The position numbers and the translations under genes are program-made. 32,213 nt of DNA from Arcobacter sp. CECT 8985 (lineage in GTDB: Bacteria; Campylobacterota; Campylobacteria; Campylobacterales; Arcobacteraceae): the NCBI RefSeq assembly GCF_004116495.1, contig NZ_PDKC01000030.1:1-32213 (forward strand), given 5' to 3'. The notes under the pieces are model-generated. The model was not told the origin of the DNA. It did not search any database and saw nothing but the letters and a program-made list of their open reading frames with translations. This document shows positions 5,012 through 30,768 of this stretch, one piece after another; the first letter of the stretch is position 1, and the number at the start of each line of letters is the position of its first letter.

Positions 5012-6427
5012 TTATTTAATTACTAATAGAATTGTTTGTCCATATCTATTAACATATACTCTTTTATGTTTGTTATTATATTTTCTTATTGCTTGTTGTA
5101 TGTTTACAAAAGATTTAATTTTTATATCTTCTATTTGTACAATAACATCACCTGGTTGGAAACCAGCTTTTTCTGCTTTTGATTTAGGTTCAACATTTGT
5201 AATTAAAACACCAGAAACATTGCTTCCAATTCTATATTTTTGTATTATATTTGGATCAAGTTCTGCTAGTGCAAGGCCACCTAAGAATTTACCATTATTT
5301 GTAGTAGATACGATAAGACCATTTCTATTTCCTAAAACAATCTCAAATTTGATATTTTTCTTATCTCTTTCTACACTTAATTTTACTTTTTGATTAGGTT
5401 TATAAGAAGCAATGATATTTTGTAAATCAGTTCTATCTCTTACAGATTTACCATTTATTGCATAAATTAAGTCACCTCTTTTTAATCCATATTTTTTAGC
5501 AGGAGTATCAGGAGATACATCTAAAATTAACGCACCTTTTTTATGATTATACACTTTTGTTAAATTTGGATTTAAATCATCAATAACTACACCTAAATAA
5601 CCCCTTGTTACTTTACCATCTTTTATTAGTTTTGTAACAACATTTTTAACCATATTTACTGGAATTGCAAATCCAATACCATTGTTACCACCACTTTTTG
5701 TGATAATTGCACTATTTATACCAATTAAAGCACCTCTACTGTCAACTAATGCACCACCAGAATTCCCTGGGTTAATTGAAGCATCTGTTTGAATGAAGTT
5801 CTCATATCTATTTATACCTACTTTATTTTTATTTAATGCAGATACAATACCTTGAGTTACTGTACTTCCTATACCAAATGGATTACCAAGTGCAAATATT
5901 ACATCGCCAATTTTTAAATTTCTTGAATAACCTAGTTTTATGGCATTAAAGTTATTTCCATTAATTTTAATAACTGCAATATCACTATCTGGATCTTTTC
6001 CTATGACTTTTGCATCATATTCAGTTGGATTATTCCCTATAGTAACGCTAATCTCTTCAGCATTTTCAATCACATGATAGTTAGTAACAATATATCCATC
6101 TTTTGATAAAATTACACCAGAACCTAGTGATCTTTGTATTCTATCTTGTTGGAATTGATTTCCAAATTGATCACCAAAAAACCTTTTAAAAAGTGGATCA
6201 TTAAACATTTGCAATGGAATGTTTGCTGCTTCATTAATGTGTCTTTGAGCAGATATGTTTACGACTGATTTCATCGCATCCTTAATACTTGCATTAAATG
6301 ATAATAGTTGTTCTGCTTTATTTGGTGCAACTCTTTGTACATTTTGTTGCGCCATATTAAAATCAATAGAGTTAGCAAGTAAATTAGTTGCTAATAATGT
6401 AGAAATAATTAAAAATTTTGATTTCAT
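5012..6427 (-). CDS. htrA: Periplasmic serine protease/chaperone, HtrA/DegQ family
   Basis: HtrA degrades and refolds misfolded periplasmic proteins; in relatives it is also secreted. The 471-aa protein has a Sec signal peptide (residues 1-19, ending LLANS), a trypsin-like domain with triad His118 (TNYHVIENA), Asp149 (DPDSDIAVIK) and Ser223 (NPGNSGGALV), and two PDZ domains at about 270-360 and 375-471, each with a substrate-cleft region. Length and architecture fit the Do/DegP family. The ATG at 6427 has AAAAGGA 7 nt upstream. It is first in the apparent htrA-cprR-cprS operon. In C. jejuni, CprR is reported to act at the htrA promoter, and the repeats upstream here are candidate binding sites. 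Confidence 0.95.
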   Translation of the reverse strand: MKSKFLIISTLLATNLLANSIDFNMAQQNVQRVAPNKAEQLLSFNASIKDAMKSVVNISAQRHINEAANIPLQMFNDPLFKRFFGDQFGNQFQQDRIQRSLGSGVILSKDGYIVTNYHVIENAEEISVTIGNNPTEYDAKVIGKDPDSDIAVIKINGNNFNAIKLGYSRNLKIGDVIFALGNPFGIGSTVTQGIVSALNKNKVGINRYENFIQTDASINPGNSGGALVDSRGALIGINSAIITKSGGNNGIGFAIPVNMVKNVVTKLIKDGKVTRGYLGVVIDDLNPNLTKVYNHKKGALILDVSPDTPAKKYGLKRGDLIYAINGKSVRDRTDLQNIIASYKPNQKVKLSVERDKKNIKFEIVLGNRNGLIVSTTNNGKFLGGLALAELDPNIIQKYRIGSNVSGVLITNVEPKSKAEKAGFQPGDVIVQIEDIKIKSFVNIQQAIRKYNNKHKRVYVNRYGQTILLVIK

Positions 6428-6548: not shown

Positions 6549-7271
6549 CTATTTTAATGCTAATCCTGAACCTATTTTTATATGTGTATATAACTTACCA
6601 ATAATTGTAACTCTGTCACAATCATCTTTGCTATTTAATTTTGGAAATTCTTTATTGTCTGAAATTATATCAACACCTTTTGTTCCTCTAAAATGTAATC
6701 TTTTGATTTGAATTGTATCATCAATATTTACTAAATATATTCCATCAACTTCATAAAACTCTCTTCCATTTGCCATATCAATAATAACCCAATCATTCAT
6801 AGAAATAGTTGGTTCCATACTATCTCCAACTACTTTAAACATCATAAGATTTTCAGGTTTTATATTTGCATCCAAAACAAAAGCTTTACTAACTCTTATT
6901 TTTTTTGTATTTCTCTCTTCTATAACTCCTTCACTACCTGCTCCTACGGCACCATTATAAACTTCAATATTATAACTATCTTCATCAATAGTATTAAAGA
7001 TAAAATTTTCATTATTAGCTTGTATTGTTTGGTATTTTGATATTTTTTGTAAAGTTCTCTCTGAGTTATCAAAAAGTAATTGTTCGGGAATATTTAAAGC
7101 TTCTGCAAGGGCGTAGATGTCACTTATTTTTACATTTGTTCCATTCTCCCATGATTTTATATTTTCATAAGTTGTATTTTTACCTGTAATTTCTTCAACT
7201 TTTTGGGCTAAAGCTCCTTGAGATATGTTTGCTTGCTTTCTATAGAACTTTAGATTACTACTAAATTGCAT
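6549..7271 (-). CDS. Phage-type repressor: XRE helix-turn-helix plus S24 (LexA/CI-like) peptidase
   Basis: This is a transcription repressor of 240 aa from ATG 7271. An N-terminal helix-turn-helix occupies about residues 7-65 (SQGALAQKVEE, then YENIKSWENG). An S24 peptidase domain occupies about residues 105-240, with catalytic Ser151 in VVGDSMEPT and Lys190 in IQIKRLHF. An Ala-Gly pair in AVGAGSEG (111-112) could be an autocleavage site, as in LexA and CI. A TTG one codon earlier is only 2 nt from the AAGGAG ribosome-binding site, so ATG, with 5 nt spacing, is preferred. The gene faces away from the Mor-like gene with shared operators between them. It probably keeps the phage-derived module silent until DNA damage, which is inference from the family. 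Confidence 0.9.
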   Translation of the reverse strand: MQFSSNLKFYRKQANISQGALAQKVEEITGKNTTYENIKSWENGTNVKISDIYALAEALNIPEQLLFDNSERTLQKISKYQTIQANNENFIFNTIDEDSYNIEVYNGAVGAGSEGVIEERNTKKIRVSKAFVLDANIKPENLMMFKVVGDSMEPTISMNDWVIIDMANGREFYEVDGIYLVNIDDTIQIKRLHFRGTKGVDIISDNKEFPKLNSKDDCDRVTIIGKLYTHIKIGSGLALK

Positions 7272-7284
7272 CAATTCTCCTTAT

Positions 7285-7395
7285 TAGTTATTATATTACC
7301 AAAAAAAATAGTAACATAATTTCCATTTAAGAAATCTTTTATAGAAATAATATTACTATAAAAATATAAATTAAATTACTATAACAGTAATTAAA
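7285..7395. promoter_or_regulatory. Divergent operator/promoter region of repressor and activator
   Basis: A 19-bp perfect palindrome, AATTACT-ataac-AGTAATT, lies at 7374-7392, just upstream of the activator gene. Its half-site recurs as ATTACTATA at 7352-7360 and, inverted, as TAGTAAC at 7309-7315. A minus-strand TATAAT for the repressor lies at 7295-7290, so the inverted half-site sits in that promoter's spacer region. A plus-strand TATAAA lies at 7357-7362 and overlaps the second copy. The layout suggests the repressor controls both its own gene and the activator. The assignments are pattern-based. Confidence 0.55.
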
Positions 7396-7417
7396 ATACT
7401 AATTAAAAGAAGAGAAC

Positions 7418-7705
7418 ATGTCAATAAGAGTAAATACATATGAATTGTTAGTTGAAGAACTAGGAGAACAAACTGCTTTTAAAGTTTGTGAAGTATTTGG
7501 TGGTATAGATATAAAAATACCTAAAAAAGCACATAAAACATTTAGAATTAAAGAAATTGTAAAAAGACATATAAATCTTTTACAACAAAAAGATAAAAAA
7601 TGTAAATTTGTGAAATTATTTAGTCAAGAGTTAGAATTAAGCCCTAGAGCTATATATAAAATAATTCAAGACGTGGAAGATGAGATAAGAAAAGATGGAA
7701 AATAA
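7418..7705 (+). CDS. Mor/C-like phage transcription activator (putative)
   Basis: This is a 95-aa basic protein. The N-terminal part, LLVEELGEQTAFKVCEVFGG followed by IDIKIPKK, resembles the Mor/C family of phage Mu, in which a helical dimerisation segment ends in FGG and then a short beta strand. The C-terminal part, KLFSQELELSPRAIYKII, reads as a helix-turn-helix. Mor/C proteins recruit RNA polymerase to middle and late phage promoters, including that of the lysis genes. Here the gene is divergent from the S24 repressor and upstream of fibre and lysis genes, the same logic. AGAAGAG precedes the ATG. The family call is by eye; another small HTH protein is possible. Confidence 0.6.
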   Translation: MSIRVNTYELLVEELGEQTAFKVCEVFGGIDIKIPKKAHKTFRIKEIVKRHINLLQQKDKKCKFVKLFSQELELSPRAIYKIIQDVEDEIRKDGK

Positions 7706-7847
7706 AATAAAACAAAATAATAAAAAAACAAAACAAAAAAATAGTTATATAAATCAAATTGTTTATTTAGATAAAAAGTTAGTTCAGAAAGTAAAATGTG
7801 CAAAAGCAACAAAAGAAGAAGAGGAGGAATTACTTTCAAAATTATAA
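7695..7847 (+). CDS. Small hypothetical protein (50 aa) of the phage module
   Basis: The ORF overlaps the end of the Mor-like gene by 11 nt in another frame. It encodes a very Lys/Asn-rich N-terminus and then VYLDKKLVQKVKCAK and a run of five Glu before ELLSKL. A purine-rich AAGAAAAG lies just upstream of the ATG, a weak ribosome-binding site. The overlap pattern and the charged helical C-terminus make it plausible as a real small phage gene, but the composition is so A-rich that a chance ORF cannot be excluded. I recognise no family. Confidence 0.4.
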   Translation: MENKIKQNNKKTKQKNSYINQIVYLDKKLVQKVKCAKATKEEEEELLSKL

Positions 7848-7888
7848 ATAAAATTTGAAAAAAAGTATCTATTTTATGCACTTGATTC

Positions 7889-7922
7889 TTCTTATAATTT
7901 GAGAGTTGAAAGGGATTAAAAC
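7889..7922 (+). repeat. Solitary CRISPR-repeat-like sequence
   Basis: The sequence at 7889-7922 ends in GAAAGGGATTAAAAC. Its last eight bases, ATTAAAAC, match the style of the crRNA 5' handle (ATTGAAAC-like) of many type I and III repeats. The reverse complement begins GTTTTAATCCCTTTCAAC, typical of such arrays. There is only one copy and no cas gene in the window. An overlapping TATAAT at 7893-7898 offers the competing reading that this is simply a promoter -10 box for the fibre gene with an AT-rich leader. Confidence 0.35.
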
Positions 7923-7953
7923 AAACTGTTCTAGAAAGTGAGTTTTATTTAGG

Positions 7954-7969
7954 TGAGATATTAGTCTCA
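7954..7969. promoter_or_regulatory. Small inverted repeat upstream of the fibre gene
   Basis: TGAGA-tattag-TCTCA forms a perfect 5-bp-arm inverted repeat 30 nt before the fibre ATG. An 8-bp palindrome, TTCTAGAA, lies at 7929-7936. Either could be an operator or a leader hairpin. Nothing in the sequence decides between these. Confidence 0.3.
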
Positions 7970-7999
7970 ATAATTATAAAAAGAAAAAAGGAAAGAAAA

Positions 8000-8953
8000 A
8001 TGGCAGCAGATAATGTTGTAGAAAATTTAGTAGATAATGTAAGATTATTATTATCAAGTGATACAAGTTTAGAGAGTTTAAAAGAGATTGACCTATGTGT
8101 TAAACAAAATAGAGTTGATTTAGAAAATATTGACTCTTCAAAGATTATAGGTTTAGATGAAGCTTTAGATTTAAAAGTAAATGTTTCTGATATTGTTGAT
8201 AACTTATTATCAACACTTGCAGATGCACCATTGAGTGCAAATCAAGGAAGAGTATTAGCTGAGAAAGTAAAGATTGTTTCAGAAGCAATTGAAGCAATAA
8301 AAACAGTATTAGCAAGTGATGATACAACTTTAGATGAATTACAAGAAATTGTAAATTTTATCAAACAAAATAAAGAAGATTTATCAACTCTTGATTTAAG
8401 TAATATTGCAGAAACAGAAGAGTTAAAACACTTTACAAAAGAGTTAAAAGAGAAATTAGAAAATCTTCCAACAAAAGAGAATTTAAATCAATTTACTGTA
8501 CCAACAGGATTTATTTTTATTAATCCAGTTGCAACTATTCCCTCTGGATTTTTAGAGTGTAATGGAGCAGAGGTTTCAAGAGAAAAATATTCTGAACTAT
8601 TTAAAGTAATTGGTACAACTTATGGAATTGGAGATAAAACTACAACTTTTAATCTTCCTGATTTAAGAGGTGAATTTGTAAGAGGTTTTGATAATGGAAG
8701 AGGTGTTAATAAAAATAGAAAAATTGGTAGTTTTCAAGATGAAAGTATAGGTTCAAAAGGACTTGAAGATTGGGCTGAAGTAAGAGTTCCTTATGCTTCT
8801 GGTAATAGAAGTATGAATGTATTTGCTCCTAAAAAAGGTGTTAATTCTAATTATGGAGGTGAGACAGATGGTTATAGAAGAACATTAATTCCATTAAAAT
8901 TAGGTGAAACAAGACCAAGAAACGTAGCAATGATGTATTGCATTAAATACTAG
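8000..8953 (+). CDS. Phage tail-collar-domain fibre protein
   Basis: The 317-aa protein is built like a short phage tail fibre. The N-terminal 160 residues are helical and carry an internal duplication: residues 14-50 (LSSDTSLESLKEID...) and 100-136 (LASDDTTLDELQEIV...). Between them is the phage-fibre motif DAPLSANQGRVL (76-87). Residues 168-232 are a tail-collar domain (PSGFLECNGAEVSREKYSEL, then FNLPDLRGEFVRGF), and the C-terminus RPRNVAMMYCIKY is typical of collar proteins. Such proteins bind host-surface receptors on a virion or tail-like particle. The ATG has AAAGGAAAG just upstream. No tail tube, sheath, baseplate or fibre-assembly gene is nearby, so what it attaches to is unknown. Confidence 0.85.
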   Translation: MAADNVVENLVDNVRLLLSSDTSLESLKEIDLCVKQNRVDLENIDSSKIIGLDEALDLKVNVSDIVDNLLSTLADAPLSANQGRVLAEKVKIVSEAIEAIKTVLASDDTTLDELQEIVNFIKQNKEDLSTLDLSNIAETEELKHFTKELKEKLENLPTKENLNQFTVPTGFIFINPVATIPSGFLECNGAEVSREKYSELFKVIGTTYGIGDKTTTFNLPDLRGEFVRGFDNGRGVNKNRKIGSFQDESIGSKGLEDWAEVRVPYASGNRSMNVFAPKKGVNSNYGGETDGYRRTLIPLKLGETRPRNVAMMYCIKY

Positions 8954-8961
8954 GAATTTTT

Positions 8962-9270
8962 ATGCAAAGTTGGTATATATCTTTGGCTGTTGTTATTTGT
9001 GGTCTTATAGCTCAATTTGCAGTAAATAAGTATCAAAATACAGAGTTTAAAAAGCAAATTGATTCTTTGTTTAAAAGAGCAGATAAACACTCTGAAGATA
9101 TTGTCCAACTACAAACTCAACGAAAACAGTATTTGACAAGTAATAGGGCAGATGAGGTTTATTTAAGAAGAAAAGAGTTTGAGCTGTTTGAAAAACATAT
9201 TGATAGAAGATTTGATACTTTGGAAAAGAGTATGAGTAGAATAATAAATCATTTAGAAAAAGGAGCATAA
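8962..9270 (+). CDS. Small membrane protein with coiled coil, spanin- or DUF2730-like
   Basis: The 102-aa protein has an N-terminal transmembrane segment (about residues 4-20, YISLAVVICGLIAQFAV) and then a charged helical region to the end with heptad-like spacing. This is the shape of an inner-membrane spanin (Rz) or of the small phage Mu-type protein family DUF2730. It sits 8 nt after the fibre gene, with AGGA upstream of its ATG, and its stop directly abuts the start of the holin-like gene. In a lysis cassette this position suits a spanin or holin regulator. Sequence identity to a named family was not established. Confidence 0.6.
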   Translation: MQSWYISLAVVICGLIAQFAVNKYQNTEFKKQIDSLFKRADKHSEDIVQLQTQRKQYLTSNRADEVYLRRKEFELFEKHIDRRFDTLEKSMSRIINHLEKGA

Positions 9271-9669
9271 ATGTTAGAGATTTTATCTTCAATTTTTGGA
9301 AATAGTGAAGTTATAAAAAAAGGTTTAGACTTAATAGATGATGCTTGGACAAGTGAAGGTGAAAAGACAGAAAATCAAGCAAAGTTAATAGAAGCAAAAA
9401 CAAATGCGAAGATTGATTTAATCAACGCTTATGCTCCTTTTAAAATAGCACAACGATATTTGGCTTTACTTTTTACAATTGTATTTTTATTTATTATGGT
9501 AAATGGAGTTTTAGCAGCATTGTATGGCTGGGTAGATATAAACAACGTACAAAAAGCTTTGGATTTTGCAAATAAAATGTGGTTAGGTGAGATTATGTTA
9601 GCTATTGTATCTTTTTATTTTGGTGGAGGATTTATTGAGAGTGTAAATAGAAAAAAGGCAAAACAGTGA
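9271..9669 (+). CDS. Holin-like membrane protein
   Basis: The 132-aa protein has an amphipathic N-terminal half (residues 1-55, with an EGEKTENQAKLIEAK helix) and two strong transmembrane segments at about 63-88 (YLALLFTIVFLFIMVNGVLA) and 108-124 (EIMLAIVSFYFGGGF). The pattern and the FYFGG ending resemble three-TM holins of the gene-transfer-agent type. Holins form membrane lesions that release the endolysin to the cell wall. Its GTGA junction with the endolysin gene (4-nt overlap) and its place in the lysis cassette support this. An alternative is a phage membrane protein of other function. Confidence 0.7.
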   Translation: MLEILSSIFGNSEVIKKGLDLIDDAWTSEGEKTENQAKLIEAKTNAKIDLINAYAPFKIAQRYLALLFTIVFLFIMVNGVLAALYGWVDINNVQKALDFANKMWLGEIMLAIVSFYFGGGFIESVNRKKAKQ

Positions 9670-10340
9670 GTTATTTAAATAGTGTAGAGATGATAAAAAC
9701 TCTTTTTTCTAAAACAAAAATAGAAAATATATATAAAATTGAATATTTGTTAAAAAGTGCATTTTGTGATTTTAAAGTAGATAATACTTTGAGATTAGCT
9801 CATTTTTTAGCCCAAGTAAGAGAAGAAATAGGTGATGAATTTAAACCAGTATTTGAAAATTTAAATTATAGTGAGGAGGTTTTACCAAAACTATTTAAAT
9901 CTTTTGGAAATAATGATTTTGCAAAAAAGTATGGAAGAAATGAAATGCATAGTGCAAATGAAAAGATGATTGCAAGTATTGCTTATGCAAATAGACTAGG
10001 AAATGGTGATATAAGTAGCTATGATGGCTGGAAATATAGAGGTGCTGGAGCTTTACAGATTACTGGAAAGGCAAATTATTTAGAAGTTCAAAAAAGAATT
10101 GATAGATATATAAAAGATTTAAACATTGATATTTTAAATAATGATGATATAAATACTTTAGAAGGTTTTTTAGCTGCTGGGCTTGGATTTTGGATATGGA
10201 AAGATATTTTTAAAAAAGCAGACTTAGGAAAAGATTTAAAAACAGTAGATAAAGTTACTAAAGTTATAAATAGATATACAAATTCTTATGAAAAAAGAAG
10301 ACAACACTTTTACAAAATTGAAAAATATATCATAGTATAG
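9666..10340 (+). CDS. Glycoside hydrolase family 19 endolysin
   Basis: The 224-aa protein is a phage-type GH19 (chitinase-like) muramidase that cuts the peptidoglycan sugar backbone. Family blocks are visible: AHFLAQVREEIGDEF (45-59), where Glu54 aligns with the catalytic Glu of HESGGF-type motifs, FENLNYS (63-69), and then NRLGNGDISSYDGWKYRGAG (109-128), LQITGKANY (130-138) and a C-terminal helical part. There is no signal peptide, so export would need the neighbouring holin. The start is GTG 9666, overlapping the holin stop (GTGA). A hairpin follows the stop directly. Every conserved segment I would expect is present, so it looks intact. Confidence 0.88.
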   Translation: MSYLNSVEMIKTLFSKTKIENIYKIEYLLKSAFCDFKVDNTLRLAHFLAQVREEIGDEFKPVFENLNYSEEVLPKLFKSFGNNDFAKKYGRNEMHSANEKMIASIAYANRLGNGDISSYDGWKYRGAGALQITGKANYLEVQKRIDRYIKDLNIDILNNDDINTLEGFLAAGLGFWIWKDIFKKADLGKDLKTVDKVTKVINRYTNSYEKRRQHFYKIEKYIIV

Positions 10341-10356
10341 CTTTTAAGCTATACTA
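10333..10356. terminator. Bidirectional hairpin terminator between endolysin and ilvD
   Basis: TAGTATAGC at 10333-10341 pairs perfectly with GCTATACTA at 10348-10356 around a TTTTAA loop. It overlaps the endolysin stop and ends 3 nt before the ilvD stop codon. T-rich sequence follows on both strands, though without a long T-run. It marks the boundary between the phage-derived module and the convergent housekeeping gene. Confidence 0.65.
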
Positions 10357-10359
10357 TTC

Positions 10360-12048
10360 TTATAAGTCAGTTTTTAAAACTGCACCATTACTTGCATTTG
10401 TTACAAGCGCTCTATATTGTCCTAACCATTTTGAATTAAGAGGTTTTTTAAGTGGCGTAAATTCTGCTTTTCTTTTTGCTATTTCTTCATCTGATAAATT
10501 TACTTCTAAAATATATTTATCAACATCAATATGAATTTCATCACCATCTTTTAATAATCCAATCATTCCACCTTCAGCAGCTTCTGGACTTACGTGACCA
10601 ATTGAAGCACCTCTTGTAGCACCACTAAATCTACCATCAGTAATAAGTGCAACTCTATCTCCAAGTCCCATTCCCATTATTAATGAAGTAGGTGCAAGCA
10701 TTTCTTGCATACCTGGACCACCTTTTGGACCTTCATATCTAATTACAACAACATCACCAGCTTTTACTTTGCCATCTACAATCCCTTTGATTGCTTCTGG
10801 TTGTCCATTAAAACATACAGCTTTACCTGTAAATGCTCTATCTCCTGTGATACCTGCTGTTTTAATAACTGCACCCTCTTTAGCAAGGTTTCCATATAAA
10901 ATAGCTAATCCACCAACTTTACTATAAGGATTATCTATTGTATGAATAATATTTGTATCTTTTATACTTGCATCTGCAATTTTTTCAAATAAAGATTCGC
11001 CAGAGATTGTAAGATTATCAATTAGTACATCATCTCCTCTTTTTGTAATCTCTTTCATTACAGCATTTACTCCACCTGCTTTGTTTATATCTTCCATATG
11101 AACTGTAGATAAAGATGGAGAAATTTTTGCAATGTGTGAAACTTTCTTTGAGATTGAATTAATATCTTCTAAGTTAAAGTTTACATCTGCTTCTTTTGCA
11201 ATTGCAAGCATATGTAAAACAGTGTTTGAACTTCCACCCATTGCCATATCAACAGCAAATGCATTTCTTACTGCATTTTCATTTAAAATATTTCTTAATT
11301 TAAATTTTTCTCTTGCTTGCTCATCTTTTGCAATTTCACATACTCTTCTAGCTGCTTTTCTATATAATTCTTCTCTTTGTGGAGTTAAAGCTAAAATAGT
11401 TCCATTTCCTGGTAATGCAATACCCATAGCTTCCATAAGTGTATTCATAGAGTTTGCTGTAAACATACCAGAACATGAACCACCACTTGGACATGCATTA
11501 CATTCAATATCTTTTAACTCTTCTTCATTCATATTACCTTTTTCAAATTTACCAACAGCTTCAAAAGCAGTTGCTAAATCAATTGGCTTTCCATCTTTTG
11601 TATGACCTTTTGACATTGGTCCACCAGATACAAATACAGTAGGAACATCTACTCTTAATGCACCCATAATCATACCAGGAACAATTTTATCACAGTTTGG
11701 TATAGCAATCATTGCATCTAATTTATGAGCATTCATAACTGATTCAATTGAGTTTGCAATAATTTCCCTACTTGGTAATGAAAATAACATACCATCATGT
11801 CCCATTGCAATACCATCATCAACACCAATAGTATTAAACTCAAATGGAACACAGCCATTTGCTCTTATTTCTTCTTTTATAATTTCTGCAACTTTATTTA
11901 AAAAGAAATGTCCAGGAATAATTTCAATAAAAGAGTTTGCAACACCAATAAATGGTTTTTCAAAATCTGCATCTTTTAATCCTGTAGCTCTAAATAAAGA
12001 TCTATGTGGCGTTCTATCAAACCCCTTTTTTACTTCATCACTTCTCAT
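10360..12048 (-). CDS. ilvD: Dihydroxy-acid dehydratase
   Basis: IlvD dehydrates 2,3-dihydroxy-isovalerate and 2,3-dihydroxy-3-methylvalerate to the keto acids in valine, leucine and isoleucine synthesis, using an Fe-S cluster. The start chosen is ATG 12048, eight codons inside the longest frame: AAAGGA lies 7 nt upstream of it, the upstream ATG has no ribosome-binding site, and the protein then begins [10 protein letters not shown] as in relatives. The length is 562 aa. Cluster ligands are expected among Cys119 (PNCDK), Cys183/186 (CNACPSGG) and Cys192 (GSCSGMF). The [10 protein letters not shown] segment lacks the extra Cys of [2Fe-2S] enzymes, suggesting the oxygen-sensitive [4Fe-4S] type. 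It appears to be monocistronic. Confidence 0.97.
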
Positions 12049-12186
12049 ATATATATCCTTTAGTGTAATCATATTTATTATTGTATATATTCATTTATAA
12101 GATAGGCTAGATTATACTAGTTTTGCAGTTTTATTTAGATAAAAAAAATAAAAAAAGTAAAATTTTAAAACTTTTTTCAAAAACCC

Positions 12187-12559: not shown

Positions 12560-14326
12560 TTATGAGATACAAACTCTATTTCTTCCTGCTTCTTTTGCTT
12601 GATATAAACCAATATCAGCTTTTTTTACATATAAATCAATTGTTTGAGAATAATCTTTTATTTGGGTTACTCCAATACTAATAGTGATGTTTAAAATTCC
12701 TTGAGGAGTTTGAATATTCATCTGCTCACATTGTTGTCTAACTCTATTTAGTACAATAATTGAATCATCTATTGTTGTATTTCTTAATAATATTACAAAT
12801 TCTTCTCCACCCCATCTTGCAGGAATATCAATATCTCTTAATTGCTCTTTTAAAAGCTTTCCAAAGTTTTGTAATACTAAATCTCCTATATCATGACCAT
12901 ATGTATCATTAACCTTTTTAAAATGATCTAAGTCAACAATAGCTATGCATGAAGATAGTAAAGTTTTTTTATTGTTGATATCTTTATATTTTTCATATTG
13001 ATCATTAAATCCTCGTCTATTCAACAATCCTGTTAAAGTATCACAATTTGCTTCATTATATAATCTTTTAGTTTCATTGATTAGTTTTTTATTATAGTTA
13101 GATAAAGAAAACTGATATTTTATTACTGTTAATATTATTGAACAAATGATTACAGATATTGAAAAAAATACATTAGTTTCTAAATAAAATAGTTTTAAAG
13201 AAATAAAACTATAAATAATTATTGATACAATTGTTAATAATGTGATAGCCACTACAGATTTATTATAAATTTCTTTTTTAGTACTTAAATAAAAAGAAAA
13301 GAAAAATGCTATTAATATTAATAAAATATTTATATATGTATTGTTTTTTATTATTAGATTATGTTTAAGTGATTCGTATGCAATTGCAAGTAAGTATGAA
13401 CCTGACATAGCTCCTCTTGGAGTATTTATCCTATCTGATAAAAATGCTGAGCTACCTATAAAAATAGTTTTATTCTTTAAAAAGTTTTTATTAGAGATAG
13501 TTTTTTTATTAAGTGCAACTTCACTAATTTTATAAAAAGGAATAGTCATAATAGAATTTGCATTTTGAGGGTAAAATAGTTTAATTCTATTTTTTTTATC
13601 AACATTCCATGTTTTTTTATCTACGGAAAGTTCATCTGTTTTTGAGTTATATTTTATTTTTGGTATATGTTTATCTAAAGATTGAATTCGAAGAAGTAAT
13701 GATGGCAATATATTAGAATCTATATTATAAAGTAATGGAATTGATCTTATTAAACTATCTTTATCTTCTAAAACTGAAGTAATTCCAAATTTATAAATGT
13801 TATTTTCATCAAATATACTAATATGTGGTATAAGTAAACTGTTATATTTTAATGCAGGTATATTTAAATTTGTATCCCATGACATTTTTTTTAGTATTTT
13901 TTGTTCTTCTTTGTTTATTTGAATATCCTCTTCTAACGCATTTGTTACAAAGAAAATATTATTATATTTATTTATAGTTTTCTTAAAAACATCATCACCA
14001 ACTCTTGGATCTAAAAACTTAATATCAAATACAATATTTTTGACTTTCATAGACTCTAAGAATTCAATTATTGATGAATATTTATCTCTTGTATAAGGCC
14101 AGTGCCCAAAATCTTTTTCTAAAATTTTTAAAGAGTTGTCATTTATATCAATAACAACAGAATCTGTAAAATAAATCTCTTCTGATGCTAAATATTGTAT
14201 TGTATCATTAAAGTAGTTTTTTAATTTATTATATATTGTTGTATATGAAAAAGCATAACTTATAATTAAAGATAGTAAAACTATCCAAATTTGATATTTC
14301 CAGTATATTTTGTCTGTTTTTCTCAT
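12560..14326 (-). CDS. CHASE2-domain diguanylate cyclase
   Basis: This membrane protein of 588 aa makes cyclic di-GMP. TM1 (about 13-30) precedes a periplasmic CHASE2 sensor domain (about 35-325, with VVIDINDNSL near 57-66 and GAMSGSYLLA near 305-314), three further TMs (331-348, 357-378, 383-402) and a cytoplasmic GGDEF domain (about 425-588). The active site RWGGEEF is intact (GGEEF 506-510), and the product-inhibition I-site RxxD is present as RDID (497-500), five residues before it. The ATG overlaps the FecR gene's TGA (ATGA). It is last of a three-gene operon with an adhesin and a FecR protein. An envelope signal read by CHASE2 and tied to adhesin production is inference. Confidence 0.93.
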   Translation of the reverse strand: MRKTDKIYWKYQIWIVLLSLIISYAFSYTTIYNKLKNYFNDTIQYLASEEIYFTDSVVIDINDNSLKILEKDFGHWPYTRDKYSSIIEFLESMKVKNIVFDIKFLDPRVGDDVFKKTINKYNNIFFVTNALEEDIQINKEEQKILKKMSWDTNLNIPALKYNSLLIPHISIFDENNIYKFGITSVLEDKDSLIRSIPLLYNIDSNILPSLLLRIQSLDKHIPKIKYNSKTDELSVDKKTWNVDKKNRIKLFYPQNANSIMTIPFYKISEVALNKKTISNKNFLKNKTIFIGSSAFLSDRINTPRGAMSGSYLLAIAYESLKHNLIIKNNTYINILLILIAFFFSFYLSTKKEIYNKSVVAITLLTIVSIIIYSFISLKLFYLETNVFFSISVIICSIILTVIKYQFSLSNYNKKLINETKRLYNEANCDTLTGLLNRRGFNDQYEKYKDINNKKTLLSSCIAIVDLDHFKKVNDTYGHDIGDLVLQNFGKLLKEQLRDIDIPARWGGEEFVILLRNTTIDDSIIVLNRVRQQCEQMNIQTPQGILNITISIGVTQIKDYSQTIDLYVKKADIGLYQAKEAGRNRVCIS

Positions 14327-15471
14327 TTTATATCTACTTTAAATGGATACATTTGACTATATGGTCCTCGAATGCCAGAGCTATTAATACTTGACATTCT
14401 AATAAAATATTTTCCTTTTTGTAATGGTAATAACATCTTTTCTAATGAAGAGTTTAGATTAGTCACTCTAATTAATATATTATCAAAACTTCTTGTTCTT
14501 GATATTTCTAATATATATTTACTTGCTTCTGATGAACGCTCCCATCTAAGTAAAATCTTTTTTGATTTTAAATCAGTTTTAGGCTCTTTTATTTTTGGTG
14601 GAAGTGGATTTGATTTAACATTGAAAATTTCTTCAATTTTAAATCCTTCTAAGTTATATTTATCAACAGCTTGTACATTTATCTCATATTTTCCATCTTT
14701 TAAGTTATCTATGTTTATTTCTGTACCACTAACATATTTATCATGAATTAATGTTTTATATTTTGATATAGAATAGATTTGAACGTGATATTTAACTGCG
14801 TTTGCAAGTATTTCCCACGATATATACTTCTTATAATATTTAATATTTAATTCATTTAAATCTATTGTTGGTTTACTTAATAATTTTATTGGTGAAGTTA
14901 ATTTAGTTTTTTCATTTACTACTGCACCATATCCAGTATTTAACATCAAAGATTTTTTCCCATCTGTAGCTAGAATTTTTCCCTTTGTTACAAATGCTCT
15001 TGATTCTTTACCTTCTACTGCTACATTAAATATAGTTCCTCTAACTGCTAATTGTAAAGATGGAGTCACAACTTTATATTCAGAACCAAAAGTATCTTGA
15101 TTTGTTACAGTAGATTCAACTTTTCCTTTTAAAATTAATAGATTAGTAGTGGATTTTTTAGAGTCTTTATCATATTTTAGCTTTTTCATAGAAACTAATG
15201 AGTTTTCTGAAATAATTGCTATTGAATTATCTATAAATTTTATTGTTGCAGAAGAGTTCTTTTTTGTTTGTATTATCTCTCCTGTTTTAATCTTATAGCC
15301 TTCTTTTACTTTTGATAAGAGTTCACCTTTTTCATTAACTAAATAAACTTCTCCTACTTTAGAAACAATTTGAGCAAATATATTTTTAGAGTACTCAATT
15401 TTATAATATATAAATCCAATAATACATAATATTAATACTCCTGAAAAAATAATATAATTTTTTCTATTCAT
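14323..15471 (-). CDS. FecR-domain protein with fibronectin type III-like repeats
   Basis: The 382-aa protein is anchored by an N-terminal TM (about 6-24) with the rest predicted periplasmic. A FecR domain spans about residues 35-200 (VGEVYLVNEKGELL, TGEIIQTKKNSSATIKF, then LQLAVRGTIFNV near 144-155). Two beta-sandwich, FN3-like repeats follow at about 205-290 (YISWEILANAVKYHVQIY) and 295-380 (LLRWERSSEASKYILEIS). Classical FecR proteins relay signals to an ECF sigma factor, but none is present. Here it sits between a TPS adhesin (8-nt overlap) and a CHASE2 cyclase (4-nt overlap). It may sense or hold the adhesin or signal to the cyclase; neither is shown by sequence. Confidence 0.88.
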   Translation of the reverse strand: MNRKNYIIFSGVLILCIIGFIYYKIEYSKNIFAQIVSKVGEVYLVNEKGELLSKVKEGYKIKTGEIIQTKKNSSATIKFIDNSIAIISENSLVSMKKLKYDKDSKKSTTNLLILKGKVESTVTNQDTFGSEYKVVTPSLQLAVRGTIFNVAVEGKESRAFVTKGKILATDGKKSLMLNTGYGAVVNEKTKLTSPIKLLSKPTIDLNELNIKYYKKYISWEILANAVKYHVQIYSISKYKTLIHDKYVSGTEINIDNLKDGKYEINVQAVDKYNLEGFKIEEIFNVKSNPLPPKIKEPKTDLKSKKILLRWERSSEASKYILEISRTRSFDNILIRVTNLNSSLEKMLLPLQKGKYFIRMSSINSSGIRGPYSQMYPFKVDIK

Positions 15472-18400
15472 GCTCTTTTATCCTCATTTTTAAATTTATA
15501 ATTCTAAGTGTATCATCTTTACCAATAGCTTTTATACTAATATTTGGTTTTTTTATTCCTTTTGGTAAAGTTCCAGTAATTTTACCTGTTTTTTCATCTA
15601 TTTTTAAATATTTCGGTAGTGGATTACCATTTGCTAAAGTTGCACTATATTTAGATGTATCTTCTTTTTTATCTAAAATATTAATTTCAATTTTATTATT
15701 TTTTAGAGAAATTGTTTTTATTGACATACCCATTACTTCTAATATATCTACTGCATCACTTGGTAAGAATAATTCTGCATTATCCTGAATAGCTACTTCA
15801 ATTTTAGATTGAATAAATGCAATCTCACCATTTTTATTAACACGAATTTCTATTTGTGCTTTATCTAATTTATATCTGTTTTGCTTATTTGTTTTTGTTG
15901 AGTTATTTGTATCAAGATTATCTTTATTTTGTTTTTCATTTGATTGTTCAGCTATATTAGATGTTTTATCATTTTTTTGTGTTTGCTCTTGTTTTATTTG
16001 TTTATTATTTACAACACTTATTTTTGTGTTTTTTTGTGTTTTAGTTATCTTTTTATCTTCTATTTGTTTATTTGTTTTGATTTTTTCTTTGATTTGTTGT
16101 TTTGGTTTATCTTTTACTATATTCTTTGTTTTATTGATTTGTTCTGTTTTCTTTACAGGCTTATTTTTTATTGGACTACTTGTCTTAGTGTCTTTATTTG
16201 TTTGTAGTATATCTGAGTTTTCACTTGGAAAATCAAAATTAATATTTTGTTTATCTTGATTTTCATTGAAAATCTTTAGTGCATTATTAGGTTTTTTTAA
16301 ATTCTTTTTTATTGGTACTTTTATTTTTGGAATTGAGTCACTTTTTGGTATTATAGAATCTTTTATTTTTATTATTGAATCATCTTTTGGAACGACAGGA
16401 CTTTTTATATCTAATTTGCCATTTATAAAATTAATATTATATCCAAGATAATTTGATAAACCATTTAGAGATATTGTATATGTTCCCACTTTAGTTGCAC
16501 CTTGAGCAGTTCCACTATAATTTAATACACCATTTAAAATTGAAGATGAATCATTGTTTACAAAGCCAGAATAAATAGCTCCATTACCACCTGTATAAAC
16601 TCTACCATCATATACAAATGAATCATTATTAGCAGTAACTTCAATAATTGGTTGTTCTCTATAAAGAGTATAAAATCCTGAACCTAAAGCTGCATTTACT
16701 GTATCATATCCATTTGAACTTTCATCACTGTTATATCTAAAGTTACCATTAGATATTAAAGAAGATATTGAACTTCCATTTACACTACCTGTATAAAAAG
16801 TTGCTCTACCACCACCAGCTGTACCCATTGAAATATTTCCTGAAATATATTTAATATCACCACCTGTTGATGTTCCAGCAGATTCACTTTGTCCAGCATT
16901 TAGAATAATTGCAGAAGTTCCGTTATCTGAAGTGTTTATATCACCATCAATTATCAAATCACCCGTATTTGTTGCAATATTTATAGAACCTTGGGCAGTT
17001 ATTCCATTTATAGTATCTATTGTTCCAATAGTAAGAGAATCAGCATCAACATAAGATAAACTACTTAAATTATCTCCTGCAAGTACAGAGATATTATTAT
17101 TTGTATTTTCTAAGGTTACAGAGCCATTTTTTAATAATAAGTTACCAATCTTTATATATGAACTAGAATCAGACAAGATATTATCATTGTTACCATTTAT
17201 AATCAGTGTTCCTAATCCTGTTTGATTATCATCTATAATAGAGCCATTATTTAAATAAAAAGAATCACTTGAACTATTACTTGTTGAATGTCCATTTATT
17301 AAAATAGTTCCTTCTTTAACTCTTAAAATAGCTGACCCATTTGTTAAAGAATTCGCAGTATCTCCAATAGCAACAGCATCAGAACCACCTTTTGCTGTTC
17401 CTTCTATTGTAATATTTCCTTGATGGTTTGTTATTATTGAACCTGCTACTGAAACACCTCTAGCACTAGCACTACCAAAATAAGCATGACCATTTATAAA
17501 AATATTTCCACCTGAAGTTGAGCCATTTGCACTTATATCACCATTTATTGAAGCACCTCTTGCTATTGCATTTCCTTCAGCAGAAGAAGTAGAACTACTT
17601 CCAACAGCATAAGAGTCTCCAACAGTTATTCCATTCCAAATTGTAGAACCAGCTCCGCCACCTATCCAAACATTCCCTCCATTTGTTGAAATAGATGAGT
17701 TTTCAGGTATCCAAACTGAACCATCATTTTTCTTATCTTTATTTACATGACTATCTGACCATAAAACAACATGTAATTTATTACTACTACTTGTAATACT
17801 TCCATATGAAGTTAAACCAGTATAACTATTAGCAAATACTATATTTCTGTGTGCTTTTAGTGTTAAAACTGCATCACCACCTGAAGTTTTATTGACACTT
17901 GTCTCTAAAAAGATATCACCATCTTGAGAGTTTGTTCCAGCTTCAGCTGTTTCAACAATTACATTAGTTCCATTATTTAATTGAGTTTCAATAGTTGAAG
18001 CACGCAATACTGTTGTATCATCTAATGATGAGTATATTGGCGCACCTGATGAGTCCACATTTGCTTCAGCACTTGCATCAGATACAATTTTTATATTATT
18101 TGGATCAATAAGCCAAGTACCATTTTCCCCTGCATTAAGAGCAAGAGTATCTGAAAACTTAATTTTTTTACCAGAGGTTTCAATAAAACCACTCTCTGCA
18201 TTTATACTTCCACTAACTTGTGCTTCGCCACCATGTGCAAAAACTTCTATATGCCCTGTTATATCATCGATACTATTTGCCTCAAGAATACCTGTGTTGT
18301 TAACAACTCCTTTTAATAATTCATCAACTGCATTTGTTGTTAGATAAATTTTCCCACCATTTGAAATAATAGTTCCTGAGTTTGAAACCATAGCATCAAG

Positions 18401-19057
18401 TACTCCTTTATCTACTTTAAGATTAACTAATGAGTTTCCATTTAAATTAAGTGAATAAGAGTCAGTTCCAACTAAATGAATACTTCCTTTAATTGCTTTA
18501 ATTGTTCCTTCATTTACAACTTCATTTGAAGCTAATATCACTGAACCCTTGTTTACTACTTCAATTGTTCCTTGATTTATTACTGAATTTGCTGTTGCAT
18601 TTTTAAAGTTATATTTTCCTTCATTAAAATCTTCATCAGAAAGTTTTGCAGTTGTTGCTATTATTCCACTTGTATTAATACTTGCATTTTTACCAAATAA
18701 AACACCATTTGAGTTTAATATCCAAACTTGCCCATTTGCATTTAATGTACCATTTATAATACTTTTTTCATTTCCTATAACTCTATTTAGTGTAATGGAA
18801 TTAGAGTTTGGTTGCTTAAAATTAACTGATTCATTTTTTGCAATAGAAAAATTTTTCCAATTAATAGTTGCCTTGTTGGATGTTTGATTAATATTTGTTA
18901 CTGTTTTATTTTGAGTAATAGTTGCACTTCCAGAAGTAACAGTTCCACCTGTTGGAGCCCCAAAACATGATAATGAAGAGCTAAGAATTGCACTAACTAT
19001 TAAACTAATTTTACCACCTTTTATAGTTCTAATAGGTGAATTAAAATTATAAATCAT
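15464..19057 (-). CDS. Two-partner-secretion exoprotein, filamentous-haemagglutinin-like adhesin
   Basis: This is a large surface protein of 1197 aa. A signal peptide (about 1-33, SLIVSAILSSSLSCFGA) precedes the TPS/haemagglutination domain (about 35-190), with WKNFSIAKNESVNF, LNRVIGNEKSIINGTLNANG and WILNSNGVLFGKNASI; the usual NPNG is NSNG. A Gly/Ser/Asn-rich beta-helix-like body runs to about 800. An MBG/YDG-type domain follows (about 803-884), then a Lys/Gln/Asn-rich, presumably disordered linker (885-1062), and finally a putative Ig fold (1133-1197, with LPKYLKIDEKTGKITGTLPKG). Export needs a TpsB outer-membrane pore, which is not in the window. AAAGG precedes the ATG. It is first in an operon with FecR and CHASE2-GGDEF genes. 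Confidence 0.9.
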   Translation of the reverse strand: MIYNFNSPIRTIKGGKISLIVSAILSSSLSCFGAPTGGTVTSGSATITQNKTVTNINQTSNKATINWKNFSIAKNESVNFKQPNSNSITLNRVIGNEKSIINGTLNANGQVWILNSNGVLFGKNASINTSGIIATTAKLSDEDFNEGKYNFKNATANSVINQGTIEVVNKGSVILASNEVVNEGTIKAIKGSIHLVGTDSYSLNLNGNSLVNLKVDKGVLDAMVSNSGTIISNGGKIYLTTNAVDELLKGVVNNTGILEANSIDDITGHIEVFAHGGEAQVSGSINAESGFIETSGKKIKFSDTLALNAGENGTWLIDPNNIKIVSDASAEANVDSSGAPIYSSLDDTTVLRASTIETQLNNGTNVIVETAEAGTNSQDGDIFLETSVNKTSGGDAVLTLKAHRNIVFANSYTGLTSYGSITSSSNKLHVVLWSDSHVNKDKKNDGSVWIPENSSISTNGGNVWIGGGAGSTIWNGITVGDSYAVGSSSTSSAEGNAIARGASINGDISANGSTSGGNIFINGHAYFGSASARGVSVAGSIITNHQGNITIEGTAKGGSDAVAIGDTANSLTNGSAILRVKEGTILINGHSTSNSSSDSFYLNNGSIIDDNQTGLGTLIINGNNDNILSDSSSYIKIGNLLLKNGSVTLENTNNNISVLAGDNLSSLSYVDADSLTIGTIDTINGITAQGSINIATNTGDLIIDGDINTSDNGTSAIILNAGQSESAGTSTGGDIKYISGNISMGTAGGGRATFYTGSVNGSSISSLISNGNFRYNSDESSNGYDTVNAALGSGFYTLYREQPIIEVTANNDSFVYDGRVYTGGNGAIYSGFVNNDSSSILNGVLNYSGTAQGATKVGTYTISLNGLSNYLGYNINFINGKLDIKSPVVPKDDSIIKIKDSIIPKSDSIPKIKVPIKKNLKKPNNALKIFNENQDKQNINFDFPSENSDILQTNKDTKTSSPIKNKPVKKTEQINKTKNIVKDKPKQQIKEKIKTNKQIEDKKITKTQKNTKISVVNNKQIKQEQTQKNDKTSNIAEQSNEKQNKDNLDTNNSTKTNKQNRYKLDKAQIEIRVNKNGEIAFIQSKIEVAIQDNAELFLPSDAVDILEVMGMSIKTISLKNNKIEINILDKKEDTSKYSATLANGNPLPKYLKIDEKTGKITGTLPKGIKKPNISIKAIGKDDTLRIINLKMRIKEHE

Positions 19058-25360: not shown

Positions 25361-27094
25361 ATGAAAAAGTTATTAGTAATCTTCTGTTTATTTTCATTGT
25401 TGATTTCTACTTTGAATGCAATGAGTTTAAAAGAAAGTGTTGAAAAAACATTGGTTTCAAATCCTGATATAATTGCGGAAAGAAAAAATCAAGAAGCATA
25501 TAAATATTATGTTGATGAAAAAGAAAGCAAATATCTTCCAACTTTAGATTTAAGTGCATTTATAGAAAAATCAAGGGTTAAAGATAAATATAAAAGTGAT
25601 AGAGAAGATACTGATACGACGAAACATGGTTATAATGTTGGACTAACTTTAAAGCAATTAATATACGATGGAGGATTAACTCCTAGTGAAATAAGAGAGA
25701 TGACACATCAAGATCTATCAAATAAATATAGAAGTTTAAATGCAATTGAAAATACTGTATTAGAAACTTCAAAAGCATATACTTCTTTAGTTAAGTTTAA
25801 TGAACTAATTGCTTTATCAAAAGCTATGATTAAAACAAACGAAAATAATTTAACAATTGCAAAAGAAAAAGAAGAAATTAGTGGTGAGGTTTTAGAAACA
25901 TATCAAGTATCATCAAAACTATATTTTGCAAAAGATAAGCTTTTTGAAGAAAAAAGTAGCAAACAAGAACAATTAAATGCTTTAAAAAAATATGTGGGAG
26001 AAGATGTAAAAACTCCTGTATGTAGACCTGTAATAAATGAAAAAATAATTCCAAATAAACTTACAACTGTTATAAAAAAAGCAGTATTAAATAATTATGA
26101 AATAAAAGAACAATTAGAAAAAATAAAAATTCAAAGGGAAAAAATAGCACAAAATAAAGCTGCATTTTTACCTACAATTACATTTGAATTAAAAACTAGT
26201 AAAGATAATGATATTGAGTTAGATGGTGATGGTGTAGAAGATGAACATTATGCAAGATTAAATTTTAATTGGAACTTATTTAATGGGGGAGCTAATAAAG
26301 CTACAGCCTCTAAAGAAAAACTTTTTTTACAAGAACAAAAAAAGACATTAGATGAGATTACTAACAAGATAATTAAAGATGCAAAAGATAAATATTTTCA
26401 TTATCTAAATAATAAAAAAAGAGTTGAAGTACTTAAAAAATATGTAGATGCAAATGCAAATATAGTAGAAGTTTACAAAAATGAATTTGAAGCTGGAACA
26501 AGAACATTTGTTGATATTTTGAATGCACAAACAGAGCTATATCAATCAACAGAAAGTTTAATTGAAAGAGAATATGCTTTATATGAAAATTATTATGATT
26601 TACTATATACTCTTTCAAATTTAGGTGATACTATTTTGGTATCACAAAATCAAGATTGTAGTAAAATAAAACCAAGAGTTTATAAAATAAGTCCTGACAA
26701 AAAACAAGAAGAATTTTCTGATGAGTTAAAAGATCTTTTACAAACTGATAATTCAGTAAATTTCAATGAAGAAAAAGTAAGTACTTCAACAAGTAAACTT
26801 CATACATTTAAAAAAAAACAAACAGTAAAAAAAGAAAATAATAATATTATAGGAAAATTAATGAATACTCCTTCAAATGATTATACAATGAATATTTCAA
26901 CTGTTGAAACAAAATATTTAGATAAATATTTAGAAAAAAATAATTTAAAAAAGAAAGTTATTACATTTGGATTTGGAAAAAATAAAAAGAATTCAAAGGT
27001 ATTATTAGGTATATTTAGTAAATATAGTGAAGCAAAAGAGGCTTTAAATAATTTACCAAAAAATATATTATCTTCTAATCCATATATAGTATAG
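25361..27094 (+). CDS. TolC-family outer-membrane channel of a type I secretion system with C-terminal SPOR-like domain
   Basis: The protein forms the outer-membrane exit duct. It is 577 aa, longer than the usual 430-480. A signal peptide (1-20, ending TLNA) precedes two outer-membrane-efflux repeats (about 25-225 and 226-430), with GLTLKQLIYDGG (near 100-111) and LNFNWNLFNGG (near 304-314) as the paired strand regions and FEAGTRTFVDILNAQTELYQ (near 380-399) before the final helix. A Lys/Ser/Thr-rich linker (about 445-500) leads to a C-terminal segment (505-577) that looks like a SPOR domain: YTMNISTV at the start and VLLGIFSKYSEAKEALNNLP at the end. SPOR domains bind denuded peptidoglycan glycan. 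It is first gene of the secretion operon. The SPOR call is by eye. Confidence 0.9.
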   Translation: MKKLLVIFCLFSLLISTLNAMSLKESVEKTLVSNPDIIAERKNQEAYKYYVDEKESKYLPTLDLSAFIEKSRVKDKYKSDREDTDTTKHGYNVGLTLKQLIYDGGLTPSEIREMTHQDLSNKYRSLNAIENTVLETSKAYTSLVKFNELIALSKAMIKTNENNLTIAKEKEEISGEVLETYQVSSKLYFAKDKLFEEKSSKQEQLNALKKYVGEDVKTPVCRPVINEKIIPNKLTTVIKKAVLNNYEIKEQLEKIKIQREKIAQNKAAFLPTITFELKTSKDNDIELDGDGVEDEHYARLNFNWNLFNGGANKATASKEKLFLQEQKKTLDEITNKIIKDAKDKYFHYLNNKKRVEVLKKYVDANANIVEVYKNEFEAGTRTFVDILNAQTELYQSTESLIEREYALYENYYDLLYTLSNLGDTILVSQNQDCSKIKPRVYKISPDKKQEEFSDELKDLLQTDNSVNFNEEKVSTSTSKLHTFKKKQTVKKENNNIIGKLMNTPSNDYTMNISTVETKYLDKYLEKNNLKKKVITFGFGKNKKNSKVLLGIFSKYSEAKEALNNLPKNILSSNPYIV

Positions 27095-27155
27095 ATAATA
27101 TATCAAAGCATCAAAGACTTTATTCTAAGTATAACTAATAAGGCGGTACCTTTTT

Positions 27156-29315: not shown

Positions 29316-29316
29316 A

Positions 29317-30768
29317 ATGAAAGAGCAAGAAAATAAATTTAAAAATCATAATAATACTTCTAATAAAAAGAGTAAAAAAAGAAGAACTCTTAAAACATGG
29401 ATAAAAGATATATATGGCTTAAATGGAAATGAAAAAGAGGATTTAGATTTTGTATATACAAGTTATAGTTATGCAAATGAAGAGCCAACATATGTATCAA
29501 AAGTAGTATTTACTGTTGTTATTAGTGTTTTGACTCTTTTTGTACTTTGGGCAGCATTTGCAAAAATTGATGAACAAGCAAAAGGTCAAGGTAAAGTTAT
29601 TCCTTATGACAAAATTCAAAAAGTGCAATCTTTTGATGGAGGAATAATCTCTAAAATTCTAATAAAAGAGGGGCAACAAGTAAAAAAAGGTGATCCTTTA
29701 TTGAAAATTGACACTACAAGATTTAGAGCATTATTTGATGAAAATAAAGAAGCATATTTAAGTTTACTAGCAGTTAAAGAAAGATTAGAAGCTGAAGCAA
29801 ATATAGATATAAATAAACCTCTTCCAAAATTAAAATTTCCAAAAGAAGTTATAAAAGATGGTAAAGATTATGCTGAATCTGAAAGAAGTCTTTTAAAAAG
29901 TCAATATAATGAGTTGAAATCTTCTATTGATGTATTAAAAAATCAATATAGACAAAAACAACAAGAGCTTAAAGAAGTAAGATATACAATTAAAAACTTA
30001 AGAAAAAGTTTTAGAATTATTAAAGAACAAAGACGAACAATCCAGATGTTAGCTCAAAAAGGTGCTAAGTCAAAATATGATGTTTTAAATATTGAAAAAG
30101 AGTATAACAAAACTAGTGGTGATTTGGATTCTGCATTACTTTCTGTACATAAATCAAAACTTGCAATAAATGAAGCAAAGTTTAAAATTGAAGAGAAAAT
30201 AAATACTTTTAAAAGAGAAGCTTCTGATACTTTACAAAAAACAGTTGGGGAATTAAATAAAGTAGAAGCAAAACTAATATCTGATAAAGATAAAGTTGCA
30301 AAAACAATCATAAAATCACCTGTTGATGGTATTGTAAAACAGATATATTTAAATACAATTGGTGGTGTAGTTCAATCTGGTATGGATTTAGTTGAGATTG
30401 TACCAAATAGTAATAGTTTACTAGTAGAAGCAAAAATTGATCCAAAAGATATTGCCTTTATAAATCCAAGTCATAAAGCAATTGTTAAAATTACTGCATA
30501 TGATTTTTCTATATATGGTGGATTAGAAGGAAAAATTGTAGATATTTCTGCAGATAGTATTGTAGATAAAGAGTCAAAAGACCAAAAAAGTTATTATAGG
30601 GTTTTAGTAAAAACAGATAAAAACTATTTAGAGAAAGATGGTAAAAGACTTCCAATTATCCCAGGAATGGTTGCAACTGTAGATATTATTACAGGTAAAA
30701 AAACAATATTAGATTTCATTTTAAAACCAATTTTAAAAGTGAAACAAAATGCATTTACTGAAAGGTAA
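29317..30768 (+). CDS. Type I secretion membrane-fusion protein, HlyD/LapC-like
   Basis: The periplasmic adaptor links the ABC exporter to the TolC-like channel. It is 483 aa with a Lys-rich cytoplasmic N-terminus (1-60), TM at about 61-82 (SKVVFTVVISVLTLFVLWAA) and a biotinyl-lipoyl half-motif (VQSFDGGIISKILIKEGQQV near 104-123). A long coiled-coil hairpin spans about 150-325 and the second lipoyl half lies near 329-360 (IIKSPVDGIVKQIYLNTIGG). A C-terminal beta domain ends in LPIIPGMVATVDIITGKKT. The order TolC-ABC-HlyD and the 1-nt spacing to the ABC gene support a dedicated export complex. No substrate gene with RTX repeats is seen in the window. Confidence 0.95.
   Translation: MKEQENKFKNHNNTSNKKSKKRRTLKTWIKDIYGLNGNEKEDLDFVYTSYSYANEEPTYVSKVVFTVVISVLTLFVLWAAFAKIDEQAKGQGKVIPYDKIQKVQSFDGGIISKILIKEGQQVKKGDPLLKIDTTRFRALFDENKEAYLSLLAVKERLEAEANIDINKPLPKLKFPKEVIKDGKDYAESERSLLKSQYNELKSSIDVLKNQYRQKQQELKEVRYTIKNLRKSFRIIKEQRRTIQMLAQKGAKSKYDVLNIEKEYNKTSGDLDSALLSVHKSKLAINEAKFKIEEKINTFKREASDTLQKTVGELNKVEAKLISDKDKVAKTIIKSPVDGIVKQIYLNTIGGVVQSGMDLVEIVPNSNSLLVEAKIDPKDIAFINPSHKAIVKITAYDFSIYGGLEGKIVDISADSIVDKESKDQKSYYRVLVKTDKNYLEKDGKRLPIIPGMVATVDIITGKKTILDFILKPILKVKQNAFTER

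Follow-up and report, generated by a model that had tools for sequence, protein, structure and literature searches.

Gene content of the ilvD-htrA interval

The window (the whole stretch of 32,213 nt analysed here) is the entire contig C23 of the 2.79 Mb draft genome of Arcobacter sp. CECT 8985, designated G000 below. It is apparent that seven ORFs, all open and tightly packed, fill positions 6549-10340 between htrA (5012-6427) and ilvD (10360-12072), as had been reported in a preliminary description of this DNA; the size of the cassette is 3.8 kb. All of the ORFs between htrA and ilvD were accounted for, and no virion or other structural gene, integrase or transposase was found among them, in agreement with that description.

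The leftmost gene (6549-7274, minus strand) encodes an S24-type phage repressor with an HTH and a LexA/CI-like peptidase (Pfam Peptidase_S24, 2.1e-18; phrog_4, 1.1e-34), the closest named relatives of which are repressors of Nitratiruptor phages (31%). The remaining six genes lie on the plus strand, beyond a divergent control region (7275-7417). The first of them (7418-7705) encodes a putative Mor-like transcription activator of 95 aa. Its Pfam Mor score of 21.7 bits (E value 2.1e-4) is below the cut-off of 24.9, and it matches PHROG late-activator families at 3.6e-6 (phrog_836, 'late transcriptional activator') and 0.0018; the top Foldseek match is Mu Mor (1RR7), over the full length but not significant (E value 1.4; model pLDDT 71). 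The Mor-like assignment is thus weak but consistent across Pfam and the PHROGs. A small basic ORF of 50 aa (7695-7847), which overlaps the end of the activator gene and belongs to no family, has as its only support the retention of its C-terminal half in all five of the loci described below. The fibre gene (8000-8953) is considered separately.

Three putative lysis genes follow. The product of the first (8962-9270) is a coiled-coil protein with one TM segment; it belongs to a PHROG of unknown function (phrog_7090), matches Rz-like spanins weakly (0.0018), and is predicted by its position to act as a spanin. The second (9271-9669) encodes a membrane protein with hydrophobic segments, belonging to phrog_9646, a function-unknown PHROG that is lysis-adjacent in phages, and its relatives adjoin amidase, M15 or GH108 endolysin genes in several phages. 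A holin role is predicted from this gene context; the AlphaFold model of the protein is poor (pLDDT 54). The third (9666-10340), which overlaps the holin stop codon, encodes a GH19-type endolysin (phrog_181, 4e-34). It is homologous across the catalytic domain to the solved GH19-type phage endolysins 9ms6 and 4ok7 (9e-19), and the catalytic-region Glu is aligned. A hairpin terminator, TAGTATAGC..GCTATACTA (10333-10353), is common to the cassette and ilvD.

Viral contigs were found to contain relatives of some of these genes. In one (L090), a coiled-coil relative (59%) is preceded by fibre genes and followed directly by a lysin-like gene; this group closes a lambda-type tail region. The holin relatives in viral contigs lie in unrelated phages, and no activator relative was found there. 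Taken together, the L090 arrangement and the holin-like relatives beside endolysin genes give the cassette the appearance of a phage switch to which the fibre and lysis end of a phage has been joined.

Elsewhere in the window, inspection by eye revealed a 1197-aa exoprotein with a filamentous-haemagglutinin-like start beside a 382-aa protein and a CHASE2/GGDEF-like protein (14323-19057), as well as TolC-like and ABC/HlyD-like genes that may represent type I secretion (25361-30768).

Regulatory sequences

The S24 protein displays the features of a CI/LexA-like phage repressor, i.e. the HTH, a Ser-Lys dyad (Ser152/Lys191) and an Ala-Gly cleavage site near residues 112-113, and its catalytic motifs are identical in the five species that carry the cassette. 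The presence of the dyad and the Ala-Gly site in all five makes damage-induced self-cleavage plausible. Half-sites of the form TAGTAA/TTACTA occur three to four times per species at fixed positions (approximately 11, 35, 79 and 102) in the divergent control region, as compared with 0.27-0.33 times in shuffled sequences; these are predicted to be repressor-operator-like.

A 44-bp promoter element, GAAAAAAAnnAnCTnTTTTnTGCAC-N10-TTATAATTT (7857-7900, plus strand), precedes every module fibre gene, with one copy for each and two, therefore, in G003, where there are two fibre genes. It spans approximately -48 to the -10 box, and has a perfect -10 sequence and no -35 sequence, as is the case in activator-dependent promoters. 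A scan of nine genomes that allowed up to three mismatches gave no further copy (control, 0). In the Mu Pm promoter, 5-bp inverted repeats are centred at -43.5 within the 16-bp Mor site, according to PMC4390567. Repeats of that kind are absent upstream of the module fibre: positions -51 to -36 read TTTGAAAAAAAGTATC, which is not an inverted repeat, and yet the entire stretch from -51 to -24 is conserved.

The fibre leader (7901-7999, plus strand) is conserved in alignments of all the loci and contains possible stems (AAAAC..GTTTT and an outer CTGTTGAA/TTTAACAG). It could be a structured RNA; its fold z-scores, -0.2 to -2.8, are weak and not uniform, and no Rfam match above gathering was obtained for it.

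The fibre genes

The tail fibre gene (8000-8953, plus strand) encodes a conserved shaft (residues 1 to approximately 165), a Collar domain (6e-22) and a hypervariable tip, with matches to Phage_fiber_rpt. When seven module-type fibres were aligned, they were observed to have in common a shaft of approximately 165 residues and to differ in their tips, among which are Collar domains whose loops are dissimilar, a tip of Mtd-like type in G003 (mtd_2nd, 1.9e-14; phrog_11262, 1.9e-76) and others. The fibres of G000 and G003 are identical at 164 of their first 165 residues and differ in the tip loop. Fibre tips are swapped within the genus. The tip of the Mtd-like fibre of G003 (L010:11464-12960) resembles the targets of diversity-generating retroelements; no template repeat was found for it within 17.5 kb.

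The module fibres open almost directly with shaft repeats, whereas in a prophage fibre of G025 approximately 430 residues precede a shaft of the same type. This difference suggests that a tail-attachment part is missing from the module fibres. Against the reading preferred below, fibres that are bound to particles are ordinarily built in this way, with exchangeable tips on a repeated shaft, and the distal fibres of real phages may themselves be without an anchor of their own. The G025 element (G025:C100:31001-45121, L088) is a tailed prophage in which spanin-like and lysozyme-like genes and an integrase come after the shaft-sharing fibre.

Distribution and conservation of the cassette

Carriers of the cassette were sought among 104 genomes of the family, with the activator as the query. 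Five were found (G000, G003, G059, G074 and G084), representing five species in three genera; a module present in so few genomes is not essential. The preliminary description had asked whether the same gene order would recur without structural genes in several species, and it does so in four others, at the same site. In all five carriers the module is situated between ilvD and htrA, and the order is the S24 gene (divergent), activator, small ORF, fibre(s), coiled-coil, holin-like and endolysin genes, each of the two fibre genes of G003 having its own promoter. The type of endolysin varies by lineage: in G059, G074 and G084 an unrelated Amidase_2 enzyme takes the place of GH19, a swap in which the lysis function is predicted to have been kept.

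In four congeners the site is empty, with an ilvD-htrA gap of approximately 118-140 bp. The hairpin terminator is present in all carriers and differs from the ilvD terminator of the empty sites, which argues that the module arrived with its own, shared terminator. The nine genomes read contain either the module or nothing at this site, and in none of them is there a full prophage. A collection of named genomes, which may lack close relatives, yielded no match when scanned with the holin and activator alignments.

A second switch-fibre-lysis element without structural genes, differently built, was observed in G004 (G004:C1:641070-647996, L023). Its order is repressor, early genes, two fibres, PLA2-like gene, lipoprotein, LydA-type holin and M15 endolysin, and the shaft of its fibre shares 77% identity with that of the window fibre. 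In view of this element, the switch-fibre-lysis architecture may have evolved more than once.

Selection and recombination

dN/dS, the computation of which the preliminary description had proposed, was determined by the NG86 method. The ratios indicate purifying selection on the module: 0.03-0.08 for the S24 repressor (from pairs with defined dS), 0.04-0.11 for the Mor-like activator, 0.05-0.13 for the coiled-coil protein, 0.09-0.32 for the holin-like protein, 0.10-0.15 for the lysin (within type) and 0.24-0.65 for the fibre. No frameshifts were found in the module genes of the five carriers.

Divergence at fourfold sites was compared with that of the flanking genes. Between G000 and G059, the values were 26/55 for the module and 189/379 for the flanking genes (P=0.77), and 34/66 for S24 (P=0.89 against the flanking genes); for G000 and G084 the corresponding comparisons gave P=0.16 and 0.26. 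That the module has diverged between genera as much as its flanks fits inheritance from approximately the time when the genera separated. In the pair G000-G003, the part from activator to lysin is of more recent origin than the flanks (16/135 vs 141/427, P=6e-7), and the divergence of S24 is not below that of the flanks (P=0.17); the pair G059-G074 displays the same tendency toward a younger activator-to-lysin part (P=0.0003). Recombination thus affects the effector part, and the switch that governs it is more stable.

The locus is real, old and under selection. An ordinary deletion remnant of a prophage would explain why all of the genes are of phage type, and in L090 the fibre, coiled-coil and lysin-like genes, in that order, form the right end of the tail region of a lambda-type phage. 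The same intact gene set is present, however, in five species of three genera, under strong purifying selection, so a decaying remnant is rejected and the remnant reading as a whole, which fits poorly, is considered very improbable. The view in the preliminary description that random erosion seldom leaves this combination is upheld by the retention of switch, fibre and lysis genes together across three genera; its proposed grounds for a simple deletion, a full Mu-like prophage at the site and relaxed selection, were looked for, the site being read in nine genomes, and neither was found. Intact at one chromosomal position in three genera, the seven-gene cassette has more the look of a tool of the bacterium than of a virus in decay, and it has very probably been domesticated.

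Search for a tail particle elsewhere in the genomes

The preliminary description had suggested that the module might serve the particles of a tailocin or phage encoded elsewhere. The leading rival to the reading preferred here is a cryptic tailocin, with the cassette providing the regulator, fibre and lysis functions to an unrecognized tail particle. A constant shaft with exchange of tips would suit a killing particle, and a repressor and activator with fibre, holin and endolysin genes form the accessory set of tailocin clusters. The profile searches point the other way. PhageMin_Tail and Phage-tail_3 (GTA/lambda-type) are absent from G003, G059, G074 and G084, a 20-bit, tape-measure-like PhageMin_Tail match in G003 having been rejected as a chemotaxis receptor. 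Baseplate_J, sought among these four in G003, is absent there, and GPW_gp25 has no match in G074 or G084. The gp25 matches in G003, G059 and G000:C44 adjoin a TssC-like gene and were rejected as phage tail genes, since they represent a T6SS; gp25-like genes of equal length are also present in congeners without the module. A sheath profile was negative, a result that carries little weight because that profile also missed the prophage of G000 itself. A tail operon sharing the control of the module was rejected as well, the 44-bp promoter element being confined, in the nine genomes scanned, to the module fibre genes. In the other four carriers, then, the families searched reveal no tail genes except those of a T6SS, and a particle elsewhere appears unlikely within the limited sensitivity of the profiles; the split arrangement is correspondingly judged unlikely.

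A related proposal is that the module supplies fibre and lysis proteins to resident or infecting phages, in the manner of a satellite or a host-range switch. A separate, complete-looking contractile-tail prophage is indeed situated at approximately 5-34 kb of contig C1 of G000 (L021, L022), and there is another such prophage in G004. The former has its own ParB-like gene, S24 repressor, terminase, tail genes, fibre-like gene and amidase (identified by eye apart from the Pfam matches) and is self-sufficient; both appear to possess their own fibres, repressor and lysin, and G003 carries the module without Baseplate_J. Moreover, the module has no integrase, packaging or mobility gene at any of the five loci, where all ORFs between htrA and ilvD were checked, and it occupies a single site in three genera with long inheritance. 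The satellite suggestion of the preliminary description therefore fits poorly, and the supplier role is regarded as improbable.

Proposed function

The reading preferred here, the probability of which falls just short of an even balance, is that of a self-contained, domesticated end piece of a prophage: a suicide lysis system, switched by repressor and activator, that makes and releases receptor-binding fibres. The S24 repressor would hold the divergent control region shut until it was inactivated; the probable route is self-cleavage stimulated by RecA in response to DNA damage. Its loss would allow the Mor-like activator to be made and the fibre promoter to be turned on, and a single transcript would then yield the receptor-binding fibre, the coiled-coil/spanin-like protein, the holin and the endolysin. 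The cell would burst, freeing fibres and cell contents. Fibre tips would be exchanged between strains because the surface receptors that are met change, and the free fibre may be a released good that, for example, blocks phage receptors on kin or binds rivals. We infer the damage trigger, the binding of the activator, the lysis and the role of the free fibre from the locus.

A more specific version holds that soluble, tip-diversified fibres (with Collar and Mtd-like tips), delivered by programmed lysis without any particle, are themselves the active product. Their targets would be nearby cells or the adsorption of phages, and the locus would be passed on in several genera like an ordinary part of the bacterial genome; this version is put forward with considerable doubt. 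In altruistic defence, on the other hand, infection or DNA damage would lift the repressor and early lysis would abort the infection, and the fibre would either block receptors or be a passenger. The anatomy of switch and lysis genes and the patchy, recombining distribution are consistent with such a role, but no convincing match to a PADLOC family was found, and little probability is assigned to it.

Comparison with known systems

The module resembles the R/F-type pyocin clusters (PrtR/PrtN), in which a LexA/CI-like repressor, a separate activator, a fibre, a holin and an endolysin are combined in one unit. Unlike those clusters, and tailocins generally, it has no tube, sheath, baseplate, tape measure or other tail structural genes alongside its fibre and lysis genes, and none was recognized elsewhere in the other carriers. 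The fibre, regulator and lysis genes of RcGTA may also lie apart from the structural genes; in the case of the module, however, no structural cluster was detected, Phage-tail_3 being absent as described above. P4/PICI-type satellites differ in having the integrase, other mobility or packaging genes that the module lacks.

The Mu Mor/C middle-late switch is similar in that a small Mor-like HTH activator lies beside a repressor and the target promoter has a good -10 and no -35 sequence. The module repressor is S24/CI-like, unlike Mu c, and its activator would control the fibre-lysis operon only. The activator also falls under the Pfam cut-off, and its putative target differs from the Mor site as given in PMC4390567. 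As for the lambda-type contig L090, the order of fibre gene, coiled-coil homologue and lysin-like gene is that of the module, but the region is preceded by full tail genes and has no adjacent switch genes, and only the coiled-coil protein is detectably homologous.

In each of the known kinds of domesticated phage part (tailocins, GTAs and injection systems), a particle is central. A locus under selection that retains only switch, fibre and lysis genes across genera raises the question of whether a fibre can serve by itself as a weapon or a public good.
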